From: an uncultured Pseudomonadota bacterium
GTDB lineage: Bacteria; Pseudomonadota; Gammaproteobacteria; Methylococcales; Methylomonadaceae
DNA length: 64,000 nt
Direction of reading: 5' to 3'
Assembly (NCBI GenBank): GCA_903889445.1
Contig: CAISXF010000064.1
Location: 1 to 64,000 of the forward strand
In this document: positions 192-7,728 of the stretch, in pieces
Position numbering within the stretch: the stretch's first letter is position 1
Layout of the letters: the number at the start of each line of letters is the position of its first letter
Made by a program: the position numbers and the translations under genes
Notes under the pieces: model-generated
The model's database searches: none
What the model saw: the letters and a program-made list of their open reading frames with translations, nothing else
What the model was told of the DNA's origin: nothing

Positions 192-1523
192 ATGGGCGAA
201 GCGTTGAAAATACTGCGTTCCACCGTGGACAGAACCATTGCGATAAACCAATCACTTTGTTCAAATCAACATGTTTTGATTGAAGCGTTTGAGCTGTATC
301 AGATTATTATCAATTTGGTGGTCAATGCGCGAGATGCTATCGGAACGCACGGCGAAATCACGATTTCGTCCGATTTAGTCGAGATTGACGACCACAAGTG
401 CAACGCTTGTTTAGAAAAAATCAGCGGACAATTTGCTCGAGTTTTGGTATCCGACAATGGAATGGGCATCAATGACAAACAAATTGAACGTATTTTTAAG
501 CCTTTTTTCACCACAAAAGGGATTAGCAAAGGAACTGGTTTAGGCTTGTCGATGGTGACAGAAATCGTCCACAAAGTCGGCGGGCATATTGTCGTGAAAT
601 CCTCGTTGGACAGTGAAAAACACGGCACGGAATTTCACTTATTGTTTCCCGTCGCACACCCTGACGATTGTAAAATTTCGACAAAAATCGTCGCAACGCA
701 AGCGGCTGGTTTCAAATACAGCTTAAACGTTTTAGTGGTTGATAACGAAACCAGCGTGACTAAGTTTTTAGAACAAAGATTGATTAAGTCGGACCACACG
801 CCGACGATTTTTAATAATGCTTCGGATGCGTTGTTGGAATTTAAACGGCATCCTGAAAATTTCGATGTGATGATTACCAATCAAATCATGCCGAAAATGA
901 CCGGTTTGGAATTAACACGAGAGTTGTTAAAGATTGAACCGAAATTTCCGGTGTTAATTTACGCAGACGCGAATGACAAACTACGCACGAAAGCAGATTT
1001 GCCTGCCGGTAATGTTGCTTTCTTAAAACGTCCCGCTCCTTTTGAAGAAATCGTTTCGTTTTTGAGCGCGATTGAACCCGAAAAGCGTTATGTCAATGAA
1101 TCAGAACCCATTTTTTGTTTGGTGTACGCCAGTCGAGCGACTGGTAACTTTTCAGAAACCGATTTGATTGATATTTTAAAATTAGCTCGCCTAGAAAATG
1201 AAAAGGCGGGTACTACCGGTGTTCTCATTTATCAAGACGGTTATTTTTTGCAGATGTTAGAAGGCAATTTTTCGACGCTCAACACGTTGTTTCATGAACA
1301 CATTTGTAAAGATTCACGTCACGATAGCATCGTCACGCTGTTTCAAGAATTTAAACCTAAGCGTGATTTTCCAAATTGGAATATGGGATTTTATGGCGAT
1401 GTTGACGCGACAGAATTGAATTTGTTGAAAGGCTATACGAATTTAAATCAGCATCCAGCAGCACAATTTTTCAACGAAAAGTTGGCGGCTGTTCAACACT
1501 TGTTGGGTCAGTTTCAGTTTTAG
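192..1523 (+). CDS. Hybrid histidine kinase remnant: HATPase, degenerate receiver and BLUF photosensor
   Basis: Residues 33-155 form a histidine-kinase ATPase domain with N box (N41, N45), G1 box (DNGMG, 88-92), F box (102-109) and G2 box (GTGLGL, 114-119). Residues 177-292 resemble a response-regulator receiver, but the acidic pair is D184-N185 and the phospho-acceptor position is Asn230 (TNQIMP), so phosphorylation is unlikely; K279 is kept. Residues 305-400 are a BLUF flavin photoreceptor domain with Y312, N336 and Q354 at the spacing known for AppA (24 and 42 residues). The dimerisation/phosphoacceptor-His domain is absent. The frame is open from base 138 and the upstream codons (EPEAIQTAAIM) still read like kinase sequence, so the gene was probably longer and lost its 5' part to an insertion. 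Blue-light-controlled ATPase output is a possibility, not shown. Confidence 0.8.
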   Translation: MGEALKILRSTVDRTIAINQSLCSNQHVLIEAFELYQIIINLVVNARDAIGTHGEITISSDLVEIDDHKCNACLEKISGQFARVLVSDNGMGINDKQIERIFKPFFTTKGISKGTGLGLSMVTEIVHKVGGHIVVKSSLDSEKHGTEFHLLFPVAHPDDCKISTKIVATQAAGFKYSLNVLVVDNETSVTKFLEQRLIKSDHTPTIFNNASDALLEFKRHPENFDVMITNQIMPKMTGLELTRELLKIEPKFPVLIYADANDKLRTKADLPAGNVAFLKRPAPFEEIVSFLSAIEPEKRYVNESEPIFCLVYASRATGNFSETDLIDILKLARLENEKAGTTGVLIYQDGYFLQMLEGNFSTLNTLFHEHICKDSRHDSIVTLFQEFKPKRDFPNWNMGFYGDVDATELNLLKGYTNLNQHPAAQFFNEKLAAVQHLLGQFQF

Positions 1524-5592: not shown

Positions 5593-7728
5593 TTAAAAAC
5601 TGGTCGATAACGTCATTCTAAAACTCAACGGTTCAACAGGATGAAAATGAATATCTGGATTTCCACCATCAGGGCAACTCGTATCTGTTTTCAAACAAGA
5701 GTCATAGTAATAATCAATACCGCTGTCTTTTCTGCCCAATAAATTGAACACTTCGGCTTGCAACTTCCAATGTTTATTAAATTCATAACCCATCATCGCA
5801 GAAAGCATTACCGTTTCTTTTGAGCGGACGCTGTTATCTTCAATCAACGCGCGAGGACCAAAATAACGTAATCGCGGGCCACCGTAAAATCCACCCAATA
5901 CATCGTGAAATGTTGCCCCCGACGCAATCACCGTTTCAACCGAGCCTGGAATATAACTCCCTTCTGCTGGATGACCTTGAAAACGTGCTTTTGAAAAACT
6001 TAAATCTGCATCAAATGTGAGCCAATTAGTTGGTGAATAATAGTTTGCCGATTCAATCCCGTAACGACGACTTGGATGACTAGCTTCTGTTGTTCCTGCA
6101 TCACCCACAAATAATAATTCCGAATCAATATCGAGCCACCAAATCGCCAGCGTACTATTTAAGCCTTTAATCCAGTTGCTACGCATTCCGACTTCCGCCC
6201 CGTAAGTGCGCGATAAAGGCACAGCGGGATCTACTTTTTCACCTGATTTTGGATCAACTTTTGTATTCACGCCGCGCCCGTCATTACTGTGAAAACCTAA
6301 ACCCCCGTTTAAATAAAATTCGGTTTCTGCCCACGGCCCAAATACGATACCTGCTTTTGGACTGACCAAGCCATCGTAGACCGTGCCTTCATTTGCCGCT
6401 TGATTACTTTTAGAAACATTAAAACGATAACCATCAAAACGTAATCCCACATCAGTTCGTAACCAATCTGTCCACGTCGTTTTGTTGTCGAAATACGGAC
6501 TTAAACTGCTTACCCAAACGTTATCTTTTCGTGTTGTATCGAGAATTTGTTGCGCTTTCGTTTTCAACAAAGCGTTATTGATATTGTCGTTACGAAATTG
6601 CAAGCCGAACGTACTTTCAGAATCAAATTGCCCTAATTTATGAAAAATCGTGTGTGTTGCTTTTGAACCCGTGACAAATCGCTCATCAGGTTGTCCAAAT
6701 TGGTCGCCGTTAATCGGATCATCCATGAAATAAGTGAAGTTAGAATATAAATCGAGAGACGTATATAAACCATACGCCATGATTTGCGTTTTGCTGTTTT
6801 TGTCCTGACGATGCCATTCACCAGTCACGCTGTAACGGTCACTGCGTCCGCCGTCAGTTGGGTCAACGTTACCAAAACGCCCAATTGAACCATCAGCCAC
6901 CGCACGTTTTGGAATTTGGTCCGTTGAATTCCAATCCGCCGCCATTGCCATTCCCGTGACGCTCCAACCGTGATTTCCGTGTTCTTCGCTGTATTTTAAA
7001 ACGCCGTTAAATTTCAAATACTCGTTGCTCACCGTCCACGGGCCGCCGTTGTGAACGGTTTCGCCTGCATACGCTAAATTACCATCGCCAATTTTTTGTG
7101 AACCCATGACTAAACCACGGTAATAATCAAAACTGCCGCCTGTGAATTTAACAGTGTGTTCGGGCAAATCACTAAAATAATGGATATTCGCTGCTCCCGC
7201 ACTCGAAAAATCGCCATTTTCAGCATAATAATTTCCTTTTTGATAATCCATCGTTTTAATCATTTCGGGAATTAAAAAATTGGTATCCATCCAACCTTGA
7301 CCGTGCGAATGCGAACCTAAATTCACTGGTACACCGTCAACTTGCGTTAAAAAATCGGTGCCGTGATCTAAATTAAAACTGCGTAAATAATACTGACTTG
7401 CTTTGCCTTCGCCACTGTGTTGACTTGAAATTAAACCTGGAACGGTTTCTAAAATTTCGCTGGGACGTGTGACGGGGCGATATTTTAATTCTTCTTGTCC
7501 AATGCTGCCTTGTGATGCACTGCCAGCGATGCCAACCAATGATTCAGCCCGACCTTCGGCTGTTGTTTTAATAACCATTTCATCGAGTTCAACCGCTTTA
7601 TCGGCTTTTTCTTTTTGTGTTTTTTTAGCTGTTTCAGGTTCGGTATATTCGGCGTGCGCGTGAACCGAAAAATTTGCCAAAATTGCCAGTAACAACAGCG
7701 TGAATTTAAAAGGGTGGTTTTTTTTCAT
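5593..7728 (-). CDS. TonB-dependent outer-membrane receptor of the HupE-linked uptake operon
   Basis: 711 residues. Signal peptide (about 1-26), a TonB-box-like segment (LDEMVIKTTAEG, about 48-59), plug domain with RPSEILETVPGL, SQYYLRSFNLDHGTDF and QVDGVPVN, then a long 22-strand-type barrel ending in phenylalanine (LSTSF). The plug carries a histidine-containing loop GSHSHGQGWMDTNFLIPE and the end has DIHFHPVEPLSFRM, both of which recur in a widespread receptor group. It is the last gene of a leftward operon with tonB, exbB, exbD and two HupE/UreJ genes, so uptake of a metal or metal complex is the best inference; nickel or cobalt would fit HupE, but the substrate is unproven. Confidence 0.85.
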   Translation of the reverse strand: MKKNHPFKFTLLLLAILANFSVHAHAEYTEPETAKKTQKEKADKAVELDEMVIKTTAEGRAESLVGIAGSASQGSIGQEELKYRPVTRPSEILETVPGLISSQHSGEGKASQYYLRSFNLDHGTDFLTQVDGVPVNLGSHSHGQGWMDTNFLIPEMIKTMDYQKGNYYAENGDFSSAGAANIHYFSDLPEHTVKFTGGSFDYYRGLVMGSQKIGDGNLAYAGETVHNGGPWTVSNEYLKFNGVLKYSEEHGNHGWSVTGMAMAADWNSTDQIPKRAVADGSIGRFGNVDPTDGGRSDRYSVTGEWHRQDKNSKTQIMAYGLYTSLDLYSNFTYFMDDPINGDQFGQPDERFVTGSKATHTIFHKLGQFDSESTFGLQFRNDNINNALLKTKAQQILDTTRKDNVWVSSLSPYFDNKTTWTDWLRTDVGLRFDGYRFNVSKSNQAANEGTVYDGLVSPKAGIVFGPWAETEFYLNGGLGFHSNDGRGVNTKVDPKSGEKVDPAVPLSRTYGAEVGMRSNWIKGLNSTLAIWWLDIDSELLFVGDAGTTEASHPSRRYGIESANYYSPTNWLTFDADLSFSKARFQGHPAEGSYIPGSVETVIASGATFHDVLGGFYGGPRLRYFGPRALIEDNSVRSKETVMLSAMMGYEFNKHWKLQAEVFNLLGRKDSGIDYYYDSCLKTDTSCPDGGNPDIHFHPVEPLSFRMTLSTSF

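Follow-up and report, generated by a model that had tools for sequence, protein, structure and literature searches.

We find that the window, the whole stretch of 64,000 nucleotides that was analysed, carries at its start one end of an IS200/IS605-type insertion sequence, followed by what we infer to be the 3′ part of a photoreceptor kinase gene that this element has split. The family to which this gene belongs is a rare variant of the photoreceptor hybrid kinase, with the light sensor, a BLUF domain, placed C-terminally behind what is mostly a pseudo-receiver. As an account of the whole, we favour, with fair but not high confidence, an IS-split HisKA-HATPase-pseudo-receiver-BLUF gene whose product would be controlled by light in the direction BLUF to receiver to kinase.

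Domain composition of the window ORF

The ORF at 192–1523 (+ strand, 443 aa) described in an earlier sequence-only reading is present in the window. The frame is also open upstream of ATG192, back to the first bases after a repeat, and the Pfam scan was run on the open frame 138–1520. The features of this region are:

1–138, + strand: right end of the IS200/IS605-type element, identified from its repeat copies at contig ends; folds into strong hairpins (DNA folding z = −4.9)
1–54, + strand: last codons of a TnpA-like ORF, LAHHFEPDTGSNFDIEP*, within the element right end
110–129, + strand: terminal hairpin, terminator-like
139–1523, + strand: putative 3′ portion of the split HisKA-HATPase-REC-BLUF gene, reading in frame onward from the insertion site
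291–656, + strand: HATPase_c domain (PF02518, 1.7e-19)
729–1058, + strand: pseudo-receiver domain (PF00072 Response_reg, 2e-12, 47.7 bits)
1113–1388, + strand: BLUF domain (PF04940, 3.9e-24, 85 bits, cut-off 25)
1389–1520, + strand: extension C-terminal to BLUF, in which the alignment shows a conserved HPA..FF..KL..Q motif

All three domain matches lie above the Pfam gathering cut-offs and are therefore not due to chance, and the order HATPase, receiver, BLUF proposed in the sequence-only reading is borne out. Within the C-terminal extension, a helix is predicted with low confidence (residues 536–555 in the model of the orthologue from genome G010).

The residue table, in the numbering of that reading, showed that D184 and K279 of the receiver are retained, that the second acid is replaced by N185 (744–746) and that the phospho-acceptor Asp is replaced by N230 (879–881). 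The earlier claim that the receiver has lost its acceptor and one pocket acid is thus accurate, and its list can be extended by the Thr/Ser position, which is A258 (963–965). A pseudo-receiver has been defined as a receiver without any of the residues DD, D, T and K, and is termed aspartate-less if the D is missing (PMC12632262). The window receiver falls under this definition, since the second acid, the acceptor Asp and the Thr/Ser are gone and one acid and the Lys remain.

The flavin hydrogen-bond residues of the BLUF domain, Y312, N336 and Q354, were also named correctly, together with their Y–N/Y–Q spacing of 24/42, and W396 and M398 are present as well. The domain aligns to the solved BLUF proteins Tll0078 (1x0p), AppA (2bun) and PixD. 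From these sequence features, the BLUF domain of this family is predicted to bind FAD and to respond to blue light. HisKA is absent from the window ORF, which by itself is therefore not a hybrid histidine kinase.

An insertion element at the contig ends

Contig C64 starts at window base 1, already inside the element, and it is only for this reason that the ORF starts at 192. ATG192 is an internal Met rather than the original start; the protein is 90% identical to its orthologue in G010, whose frame continues 96 residues upstream. Eleven copies of the right end of the element, 99–100% identical, occur in this genome; each lies at a contig end, and their 3′ flanks differ. Where left ends are known (n = 8), all are preceded by TTTAT. 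The left end carries the CCAGCTTTAGCTGG palindrome/hairpin, and on contig C66 it holds a Y1-like transposase start, MDYRYGSHTVFKIEY. Only the first 15 and the last 17 codons of the transposase gene are assembled, and by eye these resemble TnpA. No whole copy of the element was seen on any contig of this genome, and its two Y1_Tnp matches, on C19 and C5, are not linked to these element ends. The element is also a main cause of assembly breaks in the genome, standing with its right side at no fewer than 11 contig ends and with its left side at 8 or more.

The 5′ part that C64 lacks, with HisKA, its His and the HDFNN box, ends contig C66 and was located using the DNA of a relative. There it adjoins an upstream GH17-glycosyltransferase gene, starting inside the last codons of that gene. 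The frame on C66 breaks at ...VKQILVY and is followed by the element left end; C64 resumes at the same codon with CHQED. Joining the two flanks produces a 557-aa frame without stops, HisKA included. Elements of the IS200/IS605 type have subterminal hairpins and insert 3′ of a fixed short target without target duplication. The same pattern is seen here, with hairpins at both ends, insertion after the target TTTAT and no duplication at the C66/C64 site.

The two contigs are not assembled together and the pairing of element ends is not provable from the contigs, but the codon-exact continuity makes it very likely that the left end on C66 pairs with the right end on C64. The window ORF would then be the 3′ part of the split gene, which agrees with the ‘gene fragment’ option of the sequence-only reading, and since the gene is split by the insertion, the copy in this genome is most likely a pseudogene. 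No sigma-70-like promoter was found on the + strand of 1–1700, where the scan gave fewer sites than chance, and no clear ribosome site was read by eye before ATG192. A product from the split gene is therefore doubtful.

HisKA is present in the orthologues

Orthologues were found in four metagenome-assembled genomes of the same genus: G010, G004 (83% identity), G011 (81%) and G014 (69%), the window's own genome being G000. In G010, G004 and G014 the open frames are 552–557 aa long, have the order HisKA-HATPase-REC-BLUF and include the HDFNN box; the HisKA match is 4.8e-6 in G014 and 2.3e-5, just under the cut-off, in G004. The combination that defines a hybrid histidine kinase (HisKA with its His, HATPase and a receiver) was found in all three and also in the joined flanks of G000. 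As the orthologues carry HisKA with the phospho-acceptor His, the ancestral product was a hybrid histidine kinase. The three-domain order described earlier thus recurs in the homologues, but is preceded there by HisKA, and the idea of a free-standing HATPase-REC-BLUF protein controlling ATPase activity has to be given up.

The ~557-aa protein consists of a short N-terminal helix, HisKA, HATPase, pseudo-receiver and BLUF, and no N-terminal sensor or transmembrane domain was recognised in it. In all orthologues and on C66 the start of the gene runs into the 3′ end of the same glycosyltransferase gene; the overlap is only a few bases long (8 bp in G004) and is suggestive of co-transcription.

At the acceptor position of the receiver, four of the five orthologues (G000, G010, G004 and G011) have Asn and G014 has Asp. 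Asn also replaces the second acid in G000, G010 and G004; G011 and G014 have Asp there. All five have Ala at the Thr/Ser position. The sequence-only reading had considered that this copy might be the sole degenerate one among homologues with a normal Asp and an unbroken kinase. Homologues with an unbroken kinase do exist and G014 does keep the Asp, but the Asn is not unique to this copy, and its conservation, which that reading had proposed to check, holds for all orthologues except G014.

Lesions were seen in two relatives. In G011 the BLUF domain has a 1-nt frameshift, and in G004 a 12-nt in-frame deletion removes four residues of the ATP-lid FxPFFTTK motif; G011, which is near-identical to G004, keeps these residues, and either lesion is possibly an assembly error. 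The G004 deletion sits between short TTTTCAC repeats and removes part of FTPFFTTK (L048, HATPase part of 5716–7374). Given these lesions, the function of the gene may be dispensable.

Selection on the individual domains was estimated as dN/dS by the Nei-Gojobori method, using our own script. Between G000 and G010 the values were 0.12 for the DHp part, 0.19 for HATPase, 0.35 for REC and 0.06 for BLUF; between G010 and G004 they were 0.21, 0.07, 0.20 and 0.08, respectively. For REC in the comparison of G000 with G010, the Fisher p was 0.012, with approximate site counts. In some domains, the values for pairs involving G014 come close to saturation or exceed it. All domains are under purifying selection, with dN/dS below 1 throughout and well below 1 across dS values from 0.2 to above 1, and constraint is weakest, or close to weakest, in the receiver.

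Proposed signal path and alternative explanations

In the mechanism that we propose, blue light acting on FAD would switch the Tyr/Gln hydrogen bonds of BLUF, and this change would pass into the adjoining receiver. Being non-phosphorylatable in most orthologues, the receiver would serve as a docking or transmission domain that restrains or frees the DHp-CA kinase core, so changing the flow of phosphate to a separate response regulator. BLUF is the only sensor recognised and hence the probable input, and a receiver that lacks the acceptor Asp, as in four orthologues, is unable to accept phosphate. Taken together, these two points make it most likely that the signal runs from BLUF through the receiver to the kinase core.

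The lesions described above could instead reflect decay of the whole family, in which a dispensable gene is failing in several species and the pseudo-receiver is the first domain to go. The IS split in G000, the G011 frameshift, the G004 ATP-lid deletion, the high dN/dS of the receiver among the domains and the absence of BLUF from 6 of the 18 genomes of the genus all fit this explanation. We nevertheless regard it as rather doubtful, as dN/dS stays low over the whole range of dS, the G010 and G014 genes are whole, and the four orthologues that share the acceptor loss still show constraint in their other domains.

It is unlikely that the direction is reversed and BLUF is the output, with the kinase and receiver controlling a BLUF-linked activity, or that BLUF is a redox or structural flavin binder. 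In response regulators the domain after the receiver is usually the output, BLUF proteins of the PixD/AppA type act by protein partners, the G014 receiver keeps its Asp, and the related protein of G007 (below) has a canonical receiver. However, the acceptor has been lost in most orthologues while all BLUF photocycle residues were kept, and between G000 and G010 no domain is under stronger constraint than BLUF.

The sequence-only reading suggested a non-phosphorylatable adaptor, and the 3′ fragment could in principle still be expressed and act by itself as an adaptor, either as HATPase-pseudo-receiver-BLUF without the His or as pseudo-receiver-BLUF. Stand-alone REC-BLUF proteins do exist in the genus and the frame of the fragment is still open, but the lack of a + strand promoter and of a clear ribosome site, the hairpin at 110–129 and the beginning of the fragment in mid-kinase make this quite improbable. 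Finally, a whole gene with a chimaeric contig end is scarcely credible: the assembly is fragmented (121 contigs) and the same repeat stands on 11 contig ends, but the correct opposite element ends lie at the same codon with no target duplication, as an IS200/IS605 insertion requires, and the locus in the relatives is without the element.

If the proposed BLUF to receiver to kinase path is correct, the fusion of BLUF to a pseudo-receiver would provide a lamp-switchable signal, and the control of a kinase by a pseudo-receiver could then be tested directly. The change from Asp to Asn in the orthologue series provides matched proteins with and without the phospho-acceptor, and the rare layout, with the sensor behind the pseudo-receiver, could show how such receivers are controlled.

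Repeated pairing of receiver and BLUF in the genus

BLUF matches were found in 12 of the 18 genomes of the genus, and the pairing of a receiver with BLUF occurs repeatedly among them. The key BLUF residues are identical in every REC-BLUF protein covering them. G007 has a PAS-HisKA-HATPase-REC-BLUF protein with a fully canonical receiver. In G016, a REC-BLUF gene lies 33 bp after a PAS-HAMP-HisKA-HATPase gene. G012, G013, G014 and other loci of G016 have a weakly receiver-like domain ahead of BLUF, with scores under the cut-off, and in G012 and G016 such a gene is one short gene away from a receiver-like-HisKA-HATPase gene. In G014 (C144, L134 291–1331) a REC-HD-GYP gene ends 29 bp before a REC-like-BLUF gene, an arrangement that suggests light control of c-di-GMP breakdown. 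Stand-alone REC-BLUF proteins of 259–281 aa occur in G013, G016, G005 and G014, and some REC-BLUF proteins have no kinase gene within the stretch read.

Two further G016 loci differ from these. At C44 (L130 326–2611), a BLUF-PAS-PAS-HisKA-HATPase protein has BLUF at 164–255, the opposite order to the window gene; the region ahead of BLUF gave no Pfam receiver match, and a receiver there is only presumed. At C144 (L125 2005–2460), the gene next to a REC-like-BLUF gene encodes a short PAS protein whose GFNCRFLQ motif is LOV-like, placing two blue-light sensors side by side.

In the BLUF tree, the module forms a group of 15 BLUF domains with support of 95/66, and of 96/88 when the NDH-BLUF group is included. 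The G007 BLUF falls outside the module group, among short BLUF proteins, and the starred branches force two changes. In the kinase tree, G007 groups with a kinase without BLUF (99/98), apart from the clade of the window gene (99/99); the long-branch warning for this tree applies to rows other than these. Both trees taken together indicate that HK-REC probably acquired a C-terminal BLUF on two occasions, the G007 fusion being probably independent of that in the window clade.

A joint reading of these observations is possible, and we offer it tentatively. REC-BLUF may be a lineage-specific light-input module, in which BLUF drives a non-phosphorylatable receiver and which serves different kinases within one genus and perhaps a c-di-GMP phosphodiesterase. 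C-terminal BLUF would have joined HK-REC independently at least twice, and loss of the acceptor Asp would have followed because light replaced phosphorylation.

BLUF proteins in the wider family and the host

BLUF was found in 128 of the 237 genomes of the taxonomic family, and the proteins examined were short BLUF, BLUF-PsiE or GGDEF-EAL-BLUF proteins. Many more BLUF proteins of ~300 aa occur in its other genera. These were considered as REC-BLUF candidates and rejected, as BLUF was near the N terminus in all those extracted; the four that were scanned are BLUF-PsiE proteins with the PsiE-type membrane domain PF06146 (L094–L141). Elsewhere in the family, both of the long BLUF proteins that were scanned have the order GGDEF-EAL-BLUF. 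The frames at L137 2873–6463 and L138 1491–4832 encode periplasmic-binding-protein-PAS-GGDEF-EAL-BLUF proteins of about 1100–1200 aa. A REC-BLUF profile run on 399 genomes of the phylum gave only BLUF-only or REC-only proteins among the matches listed outside the window's own genome. In a tblastn search of plasmids, the ten best matches, as listed, were all confined to the kinase-receiver part; six records reached a coverage of at least 80%.

The window's own genome also contains, on C16 (L063 1481–5125), a 1215-aa open frame combining DoxX, NAD(P)H-dehydrogenase-like, cNMP-binding and BLUF domains. Its relative in G017 also scores as a C-terminal class III cyclase, and similar frames occur in G004 and G011. 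This combination of light, redox and cyclic nucleotides was not met in the published work searched.

The genome has one AMO/pmoA-family gene (E 2.9e-130), and from this sequence evidence the host is likely a methanotroph. Our literature search for BLUF domains in methanotrophs found no paper linking them. The present gene family would add blue-light signalling to bacteria with a particulate methane monooxygenase-type gene, probably methanotrophs.

Comparison with known systems

The 557-aa orthologue from G010 was modelled with AlphaFold on an alignment of 14 sequences, and the model is of modest confidence (pLDDT 66.8, pTM 0.37). The domains fold separately; their mutual arrangement is unreliable and says nothing on interfaces. 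The receiver has receiver-like strands and helices, with helix 4 reduced. Foldseek with this model returned mainly histidine kinases, including ShkA (6qrj, E 3.3e-12, 429 columns).

CikA of cyanobacteria is a histidine kinase with a C-terminal pseudo-receiver that modulates the kinase core and with an N-terminal GAF input. It shares with the window family the kinase core followed by a pseudo-receiver, but has the N-terminal GAF and no BLUF.

By analogy, the closest working parallel for the mechanism of the BLUF kinase is ShkA, a cytosolic hybrid histidine kinase of Caulobacter crescentus, in which a pseudo-receiver takes the input and frees the kinase (PMC8534201). The likeness lies in the pseudo-receiver within a hybrid histidine kinase and in the fold match of the orthologue model. 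In ShkA, however, the input is c-di-GMP bound to the pseudo-receiver, which is then followed by a canonical second receiver, whereas in the window family the pseudo-receiver is followed by BLUF and a second receiver is absent.

Short BLUF and BLUF-EAL proteins such as PixD, AppA, BlrP1 and YcgF have the same BLUF fold and photocycle residues, but neither a kinase nor a receiver. A survey from 2014 classed 64% of BLUF proteins as short and 34% as carrying EAL (PMC4844311). BLUF units do occur in sensor kinases, where structural and mechanistic work lags, and the LOV and phytochrome histidine kinases described in the same review have an N-terminal sensor joined by coiled coils (PMC6798134). The window family likewise combines a light sensor with a histidine kinase core, but carries its sensor at the C terminus, behind the receiver.
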